Assembly (NCBI RefSeq): GCF_003095375.1
Contig: NZ_QEHR01000008.1
Span: forward strand, 1-64,000
Direction: 5' to 3'
DNA length: 64,000 nt
Origin: Marixanthomonas spongiae
GTDB lineage: Bacteria > Bacteroidota > Bacteroidia > Flavobacteriales > Flavobacteriaceae
A program made the position numbers and the translations under genes. The notes beneath the pieces were generated by a model, which searched no databases, had not been told where the DNA came from, and saw only the letters and a list, made by a program, of their open reading frames with translations. Below are positions 2,914 through 49,335 of the stretch, in pieces; the stretch's first letter is position 1; each line of letters begins with the position of its first letter.

Positions 2914-5900
2914 ATGCTAAATAAGAGCATCAAATTTTTAATAGAAAATAAATTGGTAGCGGTCCTGTTACTGGTTTTATTTGTAGGTTGGGGCATTGTT
3001 ACCGCTCCTTTTAATTGGGATACGGGTTTTTTACCAACCGATCCCGTTGCTGTTGACGCCATCCCGGATATTGGCGAAAACCAACAGATTGTCTTTACCA
3101 AATGGCAAGGCCGATCGCCACAGGATATTGAAGATCAAATTACGTATCCGCTCACCACTTCCCTACTCGGGATTCCCGGTGTAAAAACTATCCGGAGTTC
3201 ATCCATGTTCGGAATATCGAGTATTTATATCATTTTTGAAGAAGATGTGGAGTTTTATTGGAGCCGAAGCCGCATCCTTGAAAAACTGAACTCCCTCCCC
3301 GCCAACCTACTCCCCGAGGGCATAAACCCGACATTGGGACCAGATGCAACGGGATTGGGACAAATATTCTGGTACACTTTAGAAGGTCGTGACAAAGACG
3401 GCAACGTTACCGGGGGTTGGGATTTGCACGAACTACGGAGCATTCAGGATTATTACGTAAAATATGCGCTTTCATCAGCCAGTGGCGTTTCGGAAGTCGC
3501 TTCCATTGGCGGGTACGTACAAGAATACCAAGTTGATGTAAACCCCGAATTGATGCGCCAATACAATATTGGGCTGGATCAAATTGTAACTGCCATAAAA
3601 CAAAGCAACGAAGATGTTGGGGCCCAAACTTTGGAAATCAACAAGGCAGAATACTTAGTTAGAGGATTAGGGTATATACAATCGATTAAGGATATTGAGA
3701 ATGCCGTGGTCACTTCCAAAGACTTCACGTCCATCCGTATCAAAGATGTGGCAAAAGTACATTTAGGGCCTGAAACCCGACGCGGAATTTTAGACAAGGA
3801 AGGTGCCGAGGTTGTTGGTGGTGTGGTCGTGGCCCGGTATGGCGCGAATCCCATGGAAGTCATTAACAATGTAAAAGATAAAATAAACGAACTCAGCGCC
3901 GGCCTTCCTTCCAAAACATTAAAAGATGGACGAACCTCACAATTAACCATCGTTCCATTTTACGACCGTACCGAACTGATACAGGAAACTCTCGGTACTC
4001 TTAATGAAGCATTGACTTTGGAAATCCTGATCACCATTTTAGTTATCGTAATTATGGTGTTCAACCTTCGTGCTTCCATCCTCATCTCAGGGTTATTGCC
4101 CGTTGCCGTGCTCATGGTTTTTATCGCCATGAAGGTTTTCAATGTCGATGCAAACATCGTAGCCCTTTCGGGTATTGCCATTGCCATTGGTACGATGGTC
4201 GATGTTGGGGTGATCCTTTCAGAAAATATTATCAGGCATTTGGAGGCGTGGAAAGCGGAAAATGGAAGCTCGAAGTTGGAAACTGGAAATTCGAAGTTGG
4301 AAGCTGGAAGTAGGAAGTTAGAAGATAACAATCCTCAAACCTCCAGCCTCAAACCTCCAGCTTCAAATATCAATACCGTTGTTTATAATGCTACTTCCGA
4401 AGTTTCGGGAGCGATTCTCACGGCTGTGTTGACGACTATTATCAGTTTTATTCCAGTGTTTACCATGATCGGTGCCGAAGGAAAACTATTCCGTCCGCTT
4501 GCTTTCACAAAAACCATGGCGCTTACGGCTTCCATTATTGTCGCCTTGTTTTTAATTCCGCCTTTTGCCGCGTATCTCTTCAGAAAGAAAAACATACGGT
4601 CTGTTTTTAGTCATATTTTGCATACGCTATTACTTCTTGTTGGGATTGTAGCAATCGCCTATGGGTATTGGTTAGGACTTATCCTTATTGCCTTTGGAGC
4701 AACAGGTTTCTTAAAAAACCCCAGGTTCGTTGCCCGTTTTTCTAAAAAAATAGTGCTGCGTGAACAACGTATCAATACCATCAATATTATTATCTCGGCC
4801 TTGGCCATTGTATTTCTGTTAGCAGAATATTGGCGCCCCTTAGGTTTTGATCGAAGCTTGATTATGAATTTACTGTTCGTAAGCTTTATCTGTTTCGGGT
4901 TATTGACTGTCTTCTGGGTGTTTATGCGGTATTACACCCGAATTTTAAATTGGTGCTTGCAAAATAAACTGCTGTTTTTGTCGATTCCTACCGTAATCCT
5001 GATTTTGGGATTCCTGATTATGAGAAACACCGGAAAGGAATTTATGCCTTCCTTAAATGAAGGATCCTTTTTGTTGATGCCTACTTCCTTACCGCACGCA
5101 GGGGTAGAAGAAAACAAACGCGTATTGCAGCAACTCGATATGGCCGTGGCCAGTATTCCCGAAATTGAAACAGTGGTAGGAAAAGCCGGTCGAACCGAAT
5201 CTGCCTTAGATCCGGCACCACTTTCTATGTACGAAAATATCATTCAATACAAATCGGAATATATTATAGATGAAACGGGGAGTCCACAACGCTTTAAAGT
5301 AAATGAAGATGGGTTGTTCGTCTTGAAAGATGGAAGTTTGGTTGAAAATAGTAACATGGAATCACTCGAAAACCAAGGAAATGAAACGTCAGATCGAGTA
5401 TTGCGAGGCACGAGCAACGTATCGAGATCGCAGCTCATCCCCGATGAAGATGGTGAATACTACCGAAACTGGCGTCCTGAAATTCAATCGCCAGACGATA
5501 TTTGGAATGAAATTGTAAACGTCACCAAATTGCCGGGCGTTACTTCGGCCCCAAAACTGCAACCCATTGAAACCCGATTGGTGATGTTGCAAACTGGAAT
5601 GCGCGCCCCAATGGGCATCAAGGTAAAAGGTCAGGATTTAAAGGAAATTGAAGCTTTTGGTATGCAACTGGAAACTATTCTAAAACAAGTAGAAGGTGTA
5701 AAAGAACAAGCTGTTTTTGCCGACCGTATTGTTGGTAAACCATATTTATTGCTAGATATAAACCGGGATCGATTGGCCCGCTACGGCATTTCCATCGAGA
5801 CGGTACAACAAACCCTACAGGTAGCCATTGGCGGTATGCCGTTAACGCAAACAGTTGAAGGTCGGGAACGTTATTCCGTAAGGGTTCGGTATCCTCGGGA

Positions 5901-6810
5901 ACTCAGGGAAAACCCAACCGATTTAAAAAACATCTATGTCCCTGTTGAAGGCGGAAGCCCCGTTCCGTTAGGCGAATTGGTTGAAATACGCTACGAACAA
6001 GGGCCACAGATGATAAAAAGTGAAGACACTTTTTTAGTGGGTTATGTACTGTTTGATAAATTAGATGGTTTTGCTGAAGTAGATGTAGTGGAAAACGCGC
6101 AACAAGCCATTCAAGATAAAATAGATTCGGGCGAATTGACCGTTCCGAAAGGAATTAACTATCAATTTACCGGAACGTATGAAAACCAAGTTCGGGCAGA
6201 GAAAACGCTTTCTGTGGTTGTTCCATTGGCGCTATTGATCATCTTTTTTATTCTGTATTTTCAGTTTAAATCGGTTGCCACTTCGTTTATGGTGTTTAGT
6301 GGTATTGCTGTAGCATTTGCCGGTGGGTTTTTAATGATTTGGTTCTATGGCCAAGATTGGTTTTTAAATTTCAGTTTATTTGGGGAAAACCTACGGGACC
6401 TTTTCCAGATGCACACCATTAATTTAAGTGTCGCCGTATGGGTCGGGTTTATTGCCTTATTCGGTATTGCGACAGATGACGGAGTTGTGATGGCCACCTA
6501 CCTGAAACAAACGTTCGACAAAAACAAACCAACACTAAAAGAGGACATACGAAAGTCAGTCATTGAAGCCGGACAAAAACGGATTCGCCCTTGTTTGATG
6601 ACAACAGCTACAACAATTCTTGCCCTGTTACCCATTTTAACTTCTACCGGGCGTGGAAGCGATATCATGATCCCGATGGCCATACCCAGCTTTGGAGGGA
6701 TGTTAATCGCATTGATCACCTTATTTGTGGTACCGGTGTTGTTTAGTTGGCGGGCGGAAGCTACTCTTAAAAGAGAACAAAAAAGGAATCAAGTCCTAAA
6801 AACGAATTAA
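2914..6810 (+). CDS. cusA: CusA/CzcA-family heavy-metal efflux RND pump
   Basis: Inner-membrane proton-driven transporter (1298 residues) that moves Cu+/Ag+ or similar ions out through a tripartite CusCBA-type complex. Visible family features are the N-terminal TM segment, the periplasmic stretch with GRSPQDIEDQITYPL, the TM bundle at about 335-560, the second porter half, and the TM bundle at about 1080-1290 with FGIATDDGVVMATYL, carrying proton-relay acids. Met-rich positions in the porter domain suit copper. Residues about 447-488 (KAENGSSKLETGNSKLE onward) are a low-complexity insertion encoded by an interspersed repeat. The family normally passes straight from ENIIRHLE to VVYNATSEV. The TolC partner follows; the CusB adaptor is encoded at the far end of the island. 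Confidence 0.95.
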   Translation: MLNKSIKFLIENKLVAVLLLVLFVGWGIVTAPFNWDTGFLPTDPVAVDAIPDIGENQQIVFTKWQGRSPQDIEDQITYPLTTSLLGIPGVKTIRSSSMFGISSIYIIFEEDVEFYWSRSRILEKLNSLPANLLPEGINPTLGPDATGLGQIFWYTLEGRDKDGNVTGGWDLHELRSIQDYYVKYALSSASGVSEVASIGGYVQEYQVDVNPELMRQYNIGLDQIVTAIKQSNEDVGAQTLEINKAEYLVRGLGYIQSIKDIENAVVTSKDFTSIRIKDVAKVHLGPETRRGILDKEGAEVVGGVVVARYGANPMEVINNVKDKINELSAGLPSKTLKDGRTSQLTIVPFYDRTELIQETLGTLNEALTLEILITILVIVIMVFNLRASILISGLLPVAVLMVFIAMKVFNVDANIVALSGIAIAIGTMVDVGVILSENIIRHLEAWKAENGSSKLETGNSKLEAGSRKLEDNNPQTSSLKPPASNINTVVYNATSEVSGAILTAVLTTIISFIPVFTMIGAEGKLFRPLAFTKTMALTASIIVALFLIPPFAAYLFRKKNIRSVFSHILHTLLLLVGIVAIAYGYWLGLILIAFGATGFLKNPRFVARFSKKIVLREQRINTINIIISALAIVFLLAEYWRPLGFDRSLIMNLLFVSFICFGLLTVFWVFMRYYTRILNWCLQNKLLFLSIPTVILILGFLIMRNTGKEFMPSLNEGSFLLMPTSLPHAGVEENKRVLQQLDMAVASIPEIETVVGKAGRTESALDPAPLSMYENIIQYKSEYIIDETGSPQRFKVNEDGLFVLKDGSLVENSNMESLENQGNETSDRVLRGTSNVSRSQLIPDEDGEYYRNWRPEIQSPDDIWNEIVNVTKLPGVTSAPKLQPIETRLVMLQTGMRAPMGIKVKGQDLKEIEAFGMQLETILKQVEGVKEQAVFADRIVGKPYLLLDINRDRLARYGISIETVQQTLQVAIGGMPLTQTVEGRERYSVRVRYPRELRENPTDLKNIYVPVEGGSPVPLGELVEIRYEQGPQMIKSEDTFLVGYVLFDKLDGFAEVDVVENAQQAIQDKIDSGELTVPKGINYQFTGTYENQVRAEKTLSVVVPLALLIIFFILYFQFKSVATSFMVFSGIAVAFAGGFLMIWFYGQDWFLNFSLFGENLRDLFQMHTINLSVAVWVGFIALFGIATDDGVVMATYLKQTFDKNKPTLKEDIRKSVIEAGQKRIRPCLMTTATTILALLPILTSTGRGSDIMIPMAIPSFGGMLIALITLFVVPVLFSWRAEATLKREQKRNQVLKTN
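4261..4368. repeat. In-frame TTGGAAG-type repeat inside cusA
   Basis: A purine-rich half built of GAAGTTGGAA/GAAGCTGGAA units is followed by a pyrimidine-rich half built of CCTCAAACCTCCAG units, so the two halves are roughly inverted. The same units occur at 6891-6932, 7337-7353 and, inverted, at 7471-7508. The insert keeps the cusA frame and has no stop codon. Confidence 0.85.
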
Positions 6811-6811
6811 G

Positions 6812-6826
6812 ATGAAAACAATAAGC
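6812..6826 (+). pseudogene. Possible detached start of the TolC gene
   Basis: One base after the cusA stop is ATGAAAACAATAAGC (Met-Lys-Thr-Ile-Ser). The spacing (TAA, G, ATG) equals that between the TolC gene and the next gene at 8714-8720. Joined to the hydrophobic FLFPLVIFCFLSQISYAQ now encoded at 7505-7558, it would give a normal signal peptide. The frame now runs into repeat DNA and stops. This is inference. Confidence 0.4.
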
Positions 6827-6868
6827 CTTCGATACTTCCCTCCTATCGTCGGGACACTCAGGCACCGA
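6827..6868. repeat. Short interspersed repeat (CTTCGATAC type)
   Basis: CTTCGATACTTCCCTCC followed by GGGACACTCAGGCACCG resembles a dispersed intergenic repeat I associate with Flavobacteriia genomes. Only one copy is in this window, so it is called from memory of the type. Confidence 0.4.
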
Positions 6869-6890
6869 GAGAATGGATGCTGATGGCTAG

Positions 6891-6932
6891 ATGTTGGAAG
6901 CTGGATGTTGGATGTTGGATGTTGGAAATTGG
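6891..6932. repeat. TTGGAAG-type repeat, left flank of the four-helix-bundle gene
   Basis: Tandem ATGTTGG and AAGCTGG units lie 40 bp before the four-helix-bundle start codon. They are in the same orientation as the first half of the cusA insert and opposite to the copy at 7471-7508. Confidence 0.8.
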
Positions 6933-6970
6933 ATAAAAATGATAAATATATTAACCAAAAATTAGAAATT

Positions 6971-7336
6971 ATGATTAAATCATTCAAAGATTTAGATGTT
7001 TACAATGAATCGTATGCGTTGGCGATGGAAATATTTTGGCTTTCCCGAAAATTTCCGAAAGAAGAAATATACTCTCTTACTTCACAAGTTGTGAGGTCTT
7101 CGCGTTCTGTTTCAGCAAATATTTCCGAAGGTTGGTCAAAACGCAAGTACACTCAAATTTTCAAACAGCAACTTATTACTTCATTAGGTTCCAATGGAGA
7201 AACAGAAACATGGTTGGATTTCGCTAAAGATTGCGGTTACATTAATGAACAAGGTTATAAAGAGTTGTTAGACAAGAATGAAATAGTTGGTCGGAAAATT
7301 AGTCGATTGCACCAAAACTGGAAGGACTTTAAGTAG
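6971..7336 (+). CDS. Four-helix-bundle protein (23S rRNA intervening-sequence/S23 family)
   Basis: 121-residue helical protein starting IKSFKDLDVY and carrying SSRSVSANISEG, the family's best conserved stretch. Relatives are encoded in 23S rRNA intervening sequences and as lone genes in Bacteroidota; the Avd accessory protein of diversity-generating retroelements has the same fold. The biochemical role of the lone genes is not established. The ATG at 6971 is preferred: upstream in-frame codons from 6905 merely translate the repeat. The gene sits between inverted TTGGAAG-type repeats, interrupting the cusA-TolC junction, so it looks like cargo of a repeat-bounded element rather than part of copper resistance. 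Confidence 0.85.
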   Translation: MIKSFKDLDVYNESYALAMEIFWLSRKFPKEEIYSLTSQVVRSSRSVSANISEGWSKRKYTQIFKQQLITSLGSNGETETWLDFAKDCGYINEQGYKELLDKNEIVGRKISRLHQNWKDFK

Positions 7337-7353
7337 AAGGCTGGATGCTGGAA
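7337..7353. repeat. TTGGAAG-type repeat fragment
   Basis: AAGGCTGGATGCTGG starts right at the stop codon of the four-helix-bundle gene and matches the unit of the flanking repeats. Confidence 0.55.
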
Positions 7354-7405
7354 AATAAAAGATTGGGTTTTGAAGACACTGAACCCCCATAAATACGAAC
7401 AAATT

Positions 7406-8716
7406 ATGAAACAAAAAAAATATTCTTTTCTCGTTAGTTTTTTTACATTAAAAGCGAAGTATTCAAAGTTGGTCCCTTCCAACTTCCAACTTCCAACCTC
7501 AAGCTTCTTATTTCCCTTAGTTATCTTTTGTTTCCTAAGCCAAATCAGCTATGCCCAAACATTGGAAAGCTATATTCAAGAGGCACAGCAAAACAACCCC
7601 GATATTCAAGCTTTCGAGTTGCGTTATAATATTGCCGAAGAAAAGATTGATGAAGTCAACAGCCTACCCAACACCGAATTTAGTGCCGGCTATTTTGTTA
7701 GCGAGCCTGAAACCCGTACCGGAGCACAAAGAGCACGGTTTTCGGTCAAACAGATGCTGCCTTGGTTTGGTACCATTTCCGCGCGGGAAAACTATGCTTC
7801 GGCTATGGCAGAGGCTGAATTTATAGAAATAACGATAGCCAAACGAAAGCTTGCCCTGTCCGTTTCAGAATTCTATTACCAGCTCTATGAAATCAGGGCC
7901 AAACAACTTGTTTTAGAGGAAAACATTCAGTTATTGGAAACCTATGAACGCTTAGCGTTAACGTCTTTGGAAGTAAACAATGCAAGCGCAGTAGATGTGT
8001 TGCGGTTGCAGATACGTCAAAATGAACTGCAACAACAAATTGAGGTATTGCTACAGCAATCAACAGGCATTCAAGCGGCCTTAAACAGCTTATTGAACCG
8101 TCCCTACAATGCTGATGTTGAAGTGCCTACCAATCTCGAAATTCCTGAAACAGACCCCGTGTATAGCTTTGAAGCTCTTTCTTTAAATCCAGAATTGCTT
8201 AAATATGATAAGTTGTATGAATCGGTAATACAATCAGAAACACTAAATCTAAAAGAAAAACTGCCCAATATTGGTTTTGGGTTGGATTTTGTGGCCGTTG
8301 AAGAACGTCCTGAGATGAATTTCAGCGATAACGGAAAAGATATTGTGATGCCCATGGTTTCTGTTTCCATCCCTATTTTCAACAATAAATATAAATCCAC
8401 TAGCAGGCAGAACGAACTTCGGAAACGTGAAATTACCTCGCAAAAAGATAATAGACTGAATGTTTTAAAGTCAGCATTTTCGAAGGCAATATCACAACGC
8501 AATCAAGCAAAGATTAAATTCAATACACAACAAAAAAACTTAAAGCAAGCACAAGATGCAGAAGAAATCTTGATCAAGAATTATGAAACCGGCACCATTG
8601 ATTTTAACGATGTCCTGGACATTCAAGAGTTGCAATTAAAATTTGGAATCAACAGCATTGAAGCCATTAAAGAATATTACATACAATCTGCGAACATAAA
8701 CTATTTAACCAACTAA
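7406..8716 (+). CDS. TolC-family outer-membrane efflux channel (CusC-like)
   Basis: Outer-membrane factor completing the CusA/CusB pump. The mature part (from about QTLESYIQEAQQNNP) has the two long alpha-helical repeats of the TolC family, with NNASAVDVLRLQ in the first half and NYETGTIDFNDVLDIQ in the second. ATG 7406 is used; an upstream in-frame ATG at 7370 would add 12 residues. The N-terminus is odd: MKQKKYSFLVSFFTL is followed by KAKYSKLVPSNFQLPTSS, translated from the inverted TTCCAAC repeat, and only then by FLFPLVIFCFLSQISYAQ, which looks like an ordinary signal-peptide core. The signal sequence was probably rebuilt after an insertion. Confidence 0.9.
   Translation: MKQKKYSFLVSFFTLKAKYSKLVPSNFQLPTSSFLFPLVIFCFLSQISYAQTLESYIQEAQQNNPDIQAFELRYNIAEEKIDEVNSLPNTEFSAGYFVSEPETRTGAQRARFSVKQMLPWFGTISARENYASAMAEAEFIEITIAKRKLALSVSEFYYQLYEIRAKQLVLEENIQLLETYERLALTSLEVNNASAVDVLRLQIRQNELQQQIEVLLQQSTGIQAALNSLLNRPYNADVEVPTNLEIPETDPVYSFEALSLNPELLKYDKLYESVIQSETLNLKEKLPNIGFGLDFVAVEERPEMNFSDNGKDIVMPMVSVSIPIFNNKYKSTSRQNELRKREITSQKDNRLNVLKSAFSKAISQRNQAKIKFNTQQKNLKQAQDAEEILIKNYETGTIDFNDVLDIQELQLKFGINSIEAIKEYYIQSANINYLTN
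7471..7508. repeat. Inverted TTCCAAC repeat read as TolC leader codons
   Basis: CCTTCCAACTTCCAACTTCC and adjoining units are the reverse complement of the TTGGAAG family at 4261 and 6891. They form the right flank of the four-helix-bundle segment and lie in frame in the TolC leader. Confidence 0.8.
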
Positions 8717-14193: not shown

Positions 14194-14661
14194 ATGAAAC
14201 ATACCTATCACATACACGGAATGACCTGCAATGGCTGTAGAAGCCATGTAGAAGAAACCCTTTCAAAAGTGGAAGGTGTTAGCAACGCATCGGTCAATCT
14301 TGAAAAAGAAGAAGCGACCATCGAAATGGAAAAGCATATTCCTATTGAAAGATTTCAAAAGGCATTGGAAGCGGATGGCGGGACGTATAGTATTCATCCG
14401 GAAGGAGAAAAACCATTAGACAAGACCTCAAAGGCCGAAATGAAACACACCTATCATATTCAAGGAATGACTTGCAATGGCTGTAGAAGCCACGTAGAAG
14501 AAACCCTTTCAAAAGTGGAAGGTGTTAGCAATGCATCGGTGAATCTTGAAAAAGAAGAAGCGACCATCGAAATGGAAAAGCATATTCCTATTGAAAGGTT
14601 TCAAAAAGCCTTGGAAGATGATGGCGGAACCTATAGTATTTATCCAGAAGGAGAAAAACCG
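14194..14661 (+). repeat. Tandem 246-bp duplication encoding two HMA domains
   Basis: The unit starting at 14194 is repeated at 14440. The proteins differ at a handful of residues over about 75, mostly at the end ([13 protein letters not shown] versus [13 protein letters not shown]). The DNA is also nearly the same, with some silent changes, showing a fairly recent duplication. Confidence 0.9.
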
Positions 14662-49267: not shown

Positions 49268-49284
49268 TGCTTATAGGATACATT

Positions 49285-49335
49285 TCAAATTACAAATGTT
49301 CAAATTACAAACCGCAATTTTCAAATTTCAAAAAC
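49285..49335. repeat. CAAATTACAAA-type short repeat
   Basis: TTCAAATTACAAA, CAAATTACAAAC and TTCAAATTTCAAA occur in tandem between recF and the lipocalin-like gene. They resemble another simple interspersed family of Bacteroidota. Confidence 0.45.

Follow-up and report, generated by a model that had tools for sequence, protein, structure and literature searches.

Ribosomal RNA (rRNA) intervening sequences (IVSs) were known by 1990, although authors writing in 2016 still regarded both their functionality and their origin as unclear (passages of PMC4990558). The same passages describe the 428-nt IVS of the Coxiella 23S rRNA gene, in which tandem GACAGAT heptamers, differing in number between strains, precede a sense S23 gene and a 28-bp terminal stem contains an RNase III end. 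Insertions in rRNA genes of the Candidate Phyla Radiation can carry an S23 gene as well (excerpts of PMC11270868), and the S23 family, PF05635, is like Avd in sequence and structure (excerpts of PMC10053308). The element analyzed here lies between cusA and tolC in a stretch of 64,000 nt, referred to as the window, from Marixanthomonas spongiae (order Flavobacteriales; assembly GCF_003095375.1, contig NZ_QEHR01000008.1, positions 1 to 64,000 of the forward strand). With a probability of about 70%, this insert is an IVS-like element with an S23 gene, located outside rRNA, which split the TolC leader and apparently moves although it encodes no recognisable transposase. It shares parts of the rRNA IVSs and differs in its site, an ordinary operon and not an rRNA gene.

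The original prediction, made from the letters alone, had placed MKTIS one base after cusA and, between it and the hydrophobic core of TolC, a repeat, a four-helix-bundle gene and an inverted copy of the repeat; all these parts were found in the sequence, in the output of Tandem Repeats Finder (TRF) and in the PF05635 match. As read from the window, the cusA stop TAA (6808-6810) is followed by G and then by ATGAAAACAATAAGC (6812-6826), and the hydrophobic core FLFPLVIFCFLSQISYAQ starts at 7505. The features are as follows.

2914..6810, + strand: cusA, resistance-nodulation-division (RND) efflux pump, the upstream neighbour (PF00873, 625.7 bits).
6812..6826, + strand: remnant of the original TolC start, MKTI or perhaps MKTIS, agreeing with the TolC start of the uninterrupted junctions L044 and L045.
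6824..6874, + strand: dispersed repeat, a component of the insert (other copies in the genome 86-93% identical).
6890..6940, + strand: left arm, a degenerate TTGGATG/TTGGAAG array (TRF 6890-6934, period 7) that pairs with the right arm.
6971..7336, + strand: S23 (23S-rRNA-intervening-sequence-protein) gene, four-helix bundle (PF05635, E 3.2e-31).
7406..7504, + strand: rebuilt N-terminal leader codons of TolC with the probable new start ATG 7406 (open frame into TolC; counterpart leader in L018/L047; insert absent in 24 of 30 TolC loci).
7476..7507, - strand: right arm, an inverted TTGGAAG array whose + reading gives SNFQLPTSS in the TolC leader (TRF 7476-7497, with 100% matches, and 7476-7507).
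7505..8716, + strand: tolC from the ancestral hydrophobic core onward (PF02321, 140.1 bits; alignment with relatives).
4249..4372, + strand: a second heptamer hairpin, without S23 gene, in frame within a CusA loop (SSKLETGNSKLEAGSRKLED...SSLKPPAS; TRF period-7 rows 4249-4309, 4263-4324 and 4329-4357, period-14 row 4333-4367).

Searching TolC in 40 genomes, the window's own included, gave matches in 25 of them and 30 loci (more than one in some genomes), which were judged by eye. At 24 of the 30 loci a cusA-like open reading frame (ORF) ends at most 62 nt from the TolC match and no insert was seen. S23 is present at three loci, those of the window (L017), L018 and L027, and the remaining ones are L032, with a heptamer array and a 478-nt gap (not checked for S23), L036, with an 89-nt gap, and L041, another TolC. 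By CusA, the uninterrupted junctions closest to that of the window are those of the same-genus genomes G001 (L044) and G002 (L045), which agree with the window across both the stop of cusA and the start of TolC; in this segment L045 and the window are identical at 27 of 31 nt, counted by eye. In the uninterrupted junction the cusA stop is followed by the TolC start ATGAAAAC(A/T)ATAA with the hydrophobic core directly after it, and the leaders continue as MKTIKIDIINRFVLILAACFLSQVSSGQ in L044 and MKTIKSNITNRVVLILTACFLSQFSNAQ in L045. An alignment of the relatives' cusA-TolC junctions had been set beforehand as the way to find an empty site, and in G001 and G002 the start is indeed joined directly to the core. 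The proposed insertion of about 680 bp in the TolC leader is upheld by these empty junctions, with two amendments: the insert is composite, because the repeat at 6824-6874 also occurs elsewhere in the genome, and the remnant may end at MKTI, since the repeat copy in L002 begins with AGC too and the insert may have contributed the S of MKTIS. Together, MKTIS and FLFPLVIFCFLSQISYAQ of the window are about 5 residues shorter than the leaders of G001 and G002.

The start of TolC in the window is accordingly predicted to lie elsewhere than the original one, and ATG 7406 is probably the actual start. That an internal ATG there supplies a new leader had been proposed at the outset; the part that could be read off is that the rebuilt leader, MKQKKYSFLVSFFTLKAKYSKLVPSNFQLPTSS..., takes the right array as codons, as does its counterpart in G005 (L018, the same locus as L047), while the exact start is the probable part. 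Before tolC in L032 and L036, signal peptides rich in F, S and H (FSLFTFHF, FIFHFSF) were observed, which seemingly come from heptamer-like repeats. The dispersed repeat at 6824-6874 reads CCTTCGATAC...CTCAGGCACC, and three of its copies are clustered on contig C17; in L002, L007 and L008 it likewise comes after TGGATG-type arrays.

The window protein matches PF05635 with 108.1 bits (cut-off 33.8) over profile positions 1-105 of 106, its relatives by sequence in the PDB are 2gsc and 2rld, and these matches assign it to the S23/IVP family of rRNA intervening sequences. The S23 gene stands on the strand of cusA and tolC, and the complementary ends can form a stem, imperfect unlike the 28-bp stem of Coxiella, in which the arms pair at -46.9 kcal/mol, compared with -25.3 +/- 3.9 for shuffles of the right arm (0 of 300 as low; z -5.5). 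No match to an rRNA family of Rfam was obtained in window 6000-8000; the only two matches, IS009 (25.5 bits against a gathering score of 117) and SCARNA7 (17.8 against 65), are below threshold and were taken as chance. The element, lying between cusA and tolC and not inside a 16S or 23S rRNA gene, is called IVS-like rather than IVS because the rRNA site, the defining trait, is missing. The units of the left array are TTGGAWG, and TTGGAAGNTKGAWGTTGGAAG, with at most 2 mismatches, is matched 13 times, with some overlaps, in the genome of 3.4 Mb, 5 of these in window 4290-7496, against 0 for the reversed control. The heptamer arrays at the window locus are not due to chance.

A search of the genome for further four-helix genes with the same flanks had been proposed at the outset. 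Eight S23 family matches with surrounding repeats were found there, but the repeats, short and judged by eye, differ from one match to another, and at L010 the units are longer than 7. Periodicity was analyzed at the best 80 of at least 162 confirmed named relatives of the window protein, at genus copies and at these eight own loci; with 21 of the 23 genus loci (the broken copies L147 and L149 were left out), 109 loci entered the lag-7 and later flank analyses. At the named loci the lag-7 identity is 0.376 on the left (n=78) and 0.353 on the right (n=76) versus 0.266 and 0.260 at 1 kb (n=74 each), and at the own and genus copies 0.338 and 0.350 (n=29 each) versus 0.269 and 0.256 at 1 kb. According to their record titles, the best 80 named relatives belong to Bacteroidetes, Deltaproteobacteria, Omnitrophica, Chloroflexi, Phycisphaerae and others, and are mostly metagenome-assembled genomes (MAGs). 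Of 246 genomes of the order, 139 have S23, the largest number in a single genome being 17 matches, and the top match from each of 40 of these 139 genomes made up a further set of 40 loci. There, the identity is 0.340 and 0.329 at lag 7 and 0.316 and 0.331 at lag 8, and lag 7 is the top lag on the left at 16 of 40 loci and on the right at 17 of 40, versus 2 of 40 for the gene body and 0 of 20 and 0 of 20 for Y1-transposase genes. Hence, S23 genes of many phyla carry heptamer arrays on both flanks.

The arms are moreover inverted to each other at a part of the loci. A first inversion test, which 69 of the 80 named loci entered (67 with full flanks, related loci kept), placed 15 of 67 above the 99th percentile of swapped pairings. 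For the tests of duplex energy, orientation and GU/AC mismatches 22 of the 109 loci were dropped as redundant, being the same site or a near copy, and by RNA duplex energy the own partner fell in the best 5% of swaps at 34 of 82 loci and beat all 30 swaps at 25, versus 10% of 132 and 6 of 132, respectively, in a pseudo-gene control.

S23 genes between co-directional neighbours are placed in sense in 57 cases and in antisense in 4 (p 4.9e-13, with crude ORF calling), as counted on the 77 of 87 loci with both neighbours within 600 nt; the ORF upstream of S23 lies at a median distance of 88 nt and the one downstream at 60 nt. Three more junctions of the window's genome (G000) carry S23 and are empty in relatives, gene names other than cusA and tolC being those that we take the protein sequences to indicate: atpG/atpA (empty in 5 of 5 matched relatives), ruvX/def (5 of 6, the sixth being cut by a contig end) and murD/mraY (5 of 6, G002 having the same insert). 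The array at murD is translated as MCKSKIENRKSKIARLVILGAGESG, and in G002 as MGKSKIENRKSKITRLVILG..., whereas two empty relatives read MAGRLVILG or MTERLVILG. By eye, the atpG/atpA relatives without S23 (L151-L155) each have a short inverted repeat, like a remnant or seed of the element, with GAGTATT units in G002 and G003 and a 15-bp perfect stem in G006 (G003 and G006 were folded). The arrangement trpE-S23-trpG was seen in two genomes (L232, L233), with an NNQQP-type N-terminal extension of TrpG; TrpG starts as MKQNIPTTNNQQPATKVLVFDNYDSF and as a longer form of like kind in G127 and G194. Judged against what we take to be the usual TrpG start, this N-terminus was probably rebuilt from a repeat arm. 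At L052 S23 lies between grpE and dnaJ, and the DnaJ there was considered as a further rebuilt start and rejected, since the frame is open through the arm but the ordinary ATG is still present.

Similar copies at separate places of one genome point to mobility as well. In the Desulfatiglandales MAG SG_15_bin78 the loci L105, L106, L107 and L110 are 85.5-91.8% identical over gene and arms, with the qualification that L106 is cut on the left by the contig and that the MAG may contain foreign contigs; L109, from another MAG, is 81-87% identical to them. The claim of a mobile repeat unit with a small helical protein thus gains from the arms at other S23 genes and from the three further sites empty in relatives, and is corrected in that the protein is not an unknown one but belongs to the S23/IVP family. 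Its supplement, that there is no transposase, holds for the element itself, whose protein has PF05635 as its only Pfam match at E 0.001; the route of movement stays hypothetical.

Could the arrays have arisen without mobility? Growth of heptamers by slippage beside an S23 gene long resident between genes, until the TolC start was displaced, would account for a unit number that varies among relatives and for arrays occurring without S23 as well. According to PMC4679880, most of the surveyed genomes have heptamers as their most frequent long simple repeats, which are attributed there to slippage. The empty sites at four junctions, the inversion of the arms to each other beyond that of swapped arms, and the similar copies at separate places in one MAG nevertheless make this account improbable. 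Two others are compatible with an IVS-like mobile element and concern the enzyme that would move it, for which 46 of the 47 genomes with at least 8 S23 matches were surveyed (G049 was left out). Copying of the S23 RNA by a reverse transcriptase in trans, as with Avd in diversity-generating retroelements, would fit the Avd-like family, the 57 of 61 sense placements and the one RVT_1 match of the window's genome, but an RVT_1 match is absent in 21 of the 46 S23-rich genomes (other reverse-transcriptase families were not sought) and the arms lack a GU excess; we hold it unlikely. A unit like a miniature inverted-repeat transposable element, moved by a resident Y1 transposase of the REP/RAYT type with S23 as passenger, is a slightly poorer candidate still. 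Y1 matches exist in 42 of the 46 genomes, the flanks are inverted and hairpins without S23 exist; yet 20 Y1 genes have flanks with palindromes of a different kind and without 7-base periodicity, and G052, G068, G139 and G145, with 8-17 S23 matches, have neither a Y1 nor an RVT_1 match. Neither enzyme would therefore be a general requirement, though old copies could outlast a lost enzyme. Y1 genes within 4 kb of S23 in four genomes were considered as linked partners and dismissed as separate neighbours in two shared gene orders.

A rival of greater weight, which we regard as possible at somewhat below even odds, is that the cusA-tolC junction received S23 in one ancient insertion, spread later by transfer or recombination of a metal-resistance cassette or lost in some lineages. 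S23 stands at this junction in six genomes: the window, G005 (L018/L047), G013 (L027), Aequorivita lipolytica (L048), A. viscosa (L049) and the MAG BCD18 (L050). The S23 protein of G013 is 72.5% and that of A. lipolytica 77% identical to the window's, so these are different genomes. In a tree of 45 chosen S23 proteins, from which L049, L063 and L136 were dropped for length or stops, five junction copies and the grpE/dnaJ copy L052 form one branch with support 99/98. This grouping favours a single insertion, although L049 is left out of it and the junction copies without L052 have a support of only 52/21. A single clade was however rejected for the S23-bearing TolCs (p-AU 3.65e-5 with six rows, 5e-4 with four) and for the CusA C-termini (6.15e-6 with three rows, the window's L017 being dropped for length), L049, L050, L033 and L046 being left out of the four-row TolC test and of the CusA test; recombination within the locus could still yield this pattern. 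Moreover, the CusA of the window is nearest by identity, after that of G005, to those of the S23-free G001 and G002 (91.0 and 91.7%). The junction S23 proteins group, unlike the CusA and TolC proteins beside them, which allows for repeated insertion at a single junction: one S23 lineage may have met the junction more than once, or may have been lost again, or recombination may have shuffled the locus.

Several observations weigh against, or qualify, an IVS-like mobile element as the source of the insert. Among the junctions displayed, the MKTI remnant was seen in the window only, and the ancestral left boundary is unsure because the left array runs into the cusA end in L047, L048 and L050. The pairing of own arms lies outside the best 5% of swaps at 48 of 82 loci, and the window locus itself ranks 0.80 with 150-nt flanks, because its right array is further out. 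Every swap was beaten at 12 of the 40 loci from the order and at 8 of 20 Y1 genes as well; Y1 genes thus have inverted flanks too, of another palindrome kind, so that the heptamers, and not inverted flanks alone, mark S23. No GU excess was found in the arms at 80 loci (165 GU versus 176 AC mismatches), so the wobble pairs do not indicate selection for an RNA stem, and the stability of the sense duplex exceeds that of the antisense duplex only weakly (p 0.02-0.03; 20 of 34 loci). In stretches 570-700 nt from S23 (L170-L209) identity peaks at lag 7 in 9 of 40 and 11 of 39 cases, with means of 0.302 and 0.282, and because of this mild lag-7 excess in the controls the contrast is smaller in the set from the order than in the named set. 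Target duplications were not noticed, without a systematic search, and no movement was observed.

Taking the insert as an IVS-like mobile element, the following course may be proposed. An ancestor acquired the S23 element in sense within the first tolC codons, just after MKTI; comparison with relatives shows that the original start was cut off and that a new start, probably ATG 7406, and the right array were recruited as leader codons. The transcript is computed to be able to form an imperfect stem whose loop holds the S23 gene, and by analogy with 23S IVSs RNase III might cut this stem, parting the cusA and tolC messages. Cutting between cistrons would be of little cost, which would explain the sense placement at gene boundaries. 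The empty sites and the diverged copies within one MAG support a spread of the element as a unit, and the S23 protein is presumed to bind the arms and to aid movement. In a wider form, which is put forward tentatively and appears rather doubtful, S23 elements would be a very widespread class of mobile DNA whose only tools are a four-helix protein without catalytic function and the heptamer arms. They would enter the boundaries between cistrons in sense and come back to certain junctions, one S23 lineage having entered cusA-tolC several times; rRNA IVSs would be those copies whose target happened to be rRNA, and the S23-free hairpins, as in the CusA loop and at the atp junction, would be non-autonomous derivatives.

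The hairpin of the CusA loop has arms that pair at -28.3 kcal/mol (4 of 300 shuffles as low), and its array is present in L047 and L048 and absent in L049 and L050. Elsewhere in the window a period-7 array of ATTTCAA was seen at 49282-49332, no inverted partner being evident by eye, and a tandem duplication of period 246 at 14194-14660, in a gene that presumably resembles a heavy-metal-binding domain gene.

Similar S23 pieces occur in many bacterial genomes. Flavobacteriia genomes contain several S23 elements in ordinary operons, present in one and absent in another of close species, which would make both their mobility and the role of the S23 protein testable. Moreover, repeat arms can turn into new N-terminal residues of conserved proteins, namely TolC, MurD (compared with empty relatives) and probably TrpG.

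Small intergenic hairpin units with an associated protein are known as REP (repetitive extragenic palindromic) elements, whose associated protein RAYT is a Y1 enzyme. The window element differs from them in that its S23 protein has no Y1 match among its Pfam matches and in that S23 arms are heptamer arrays varying by locus. The Avd protein of diversity-generating retroelements is similar through PF05635, but no reverse transcriptase lies beside the Avd-like gene here, the only RVT_1 match of the genome being on contig C17 and the element on C8. Short tandemly repeated repetitive sequences (STRR) are heptamer simple repeats too. A link of heptamer arms to S23 genes outside rRNA was not found in titles and abstract openings of the open-licence literature, subscription literature being beyond the scope, and the words "intervening" and "helix bundle" are absent from the main text of PMC4679880. 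The long simple sequence repeats and TAACTGA repeats that it describes are likewise intergenic tandem units of 7 bases, whereas S23 arms are paired, inverted and linked to S23. The closest likeness is to the Coxiella IVS, with which the window element has in common the sense S23/IVP gene, the heptamers before the gene and the complementary stem-forming ends, at about 0.65 kb versus 428 nt. In contrast to that IVS, its processing by RNase III is a prediction, its host is a protein operon, and its right arm is translated into the next protein.

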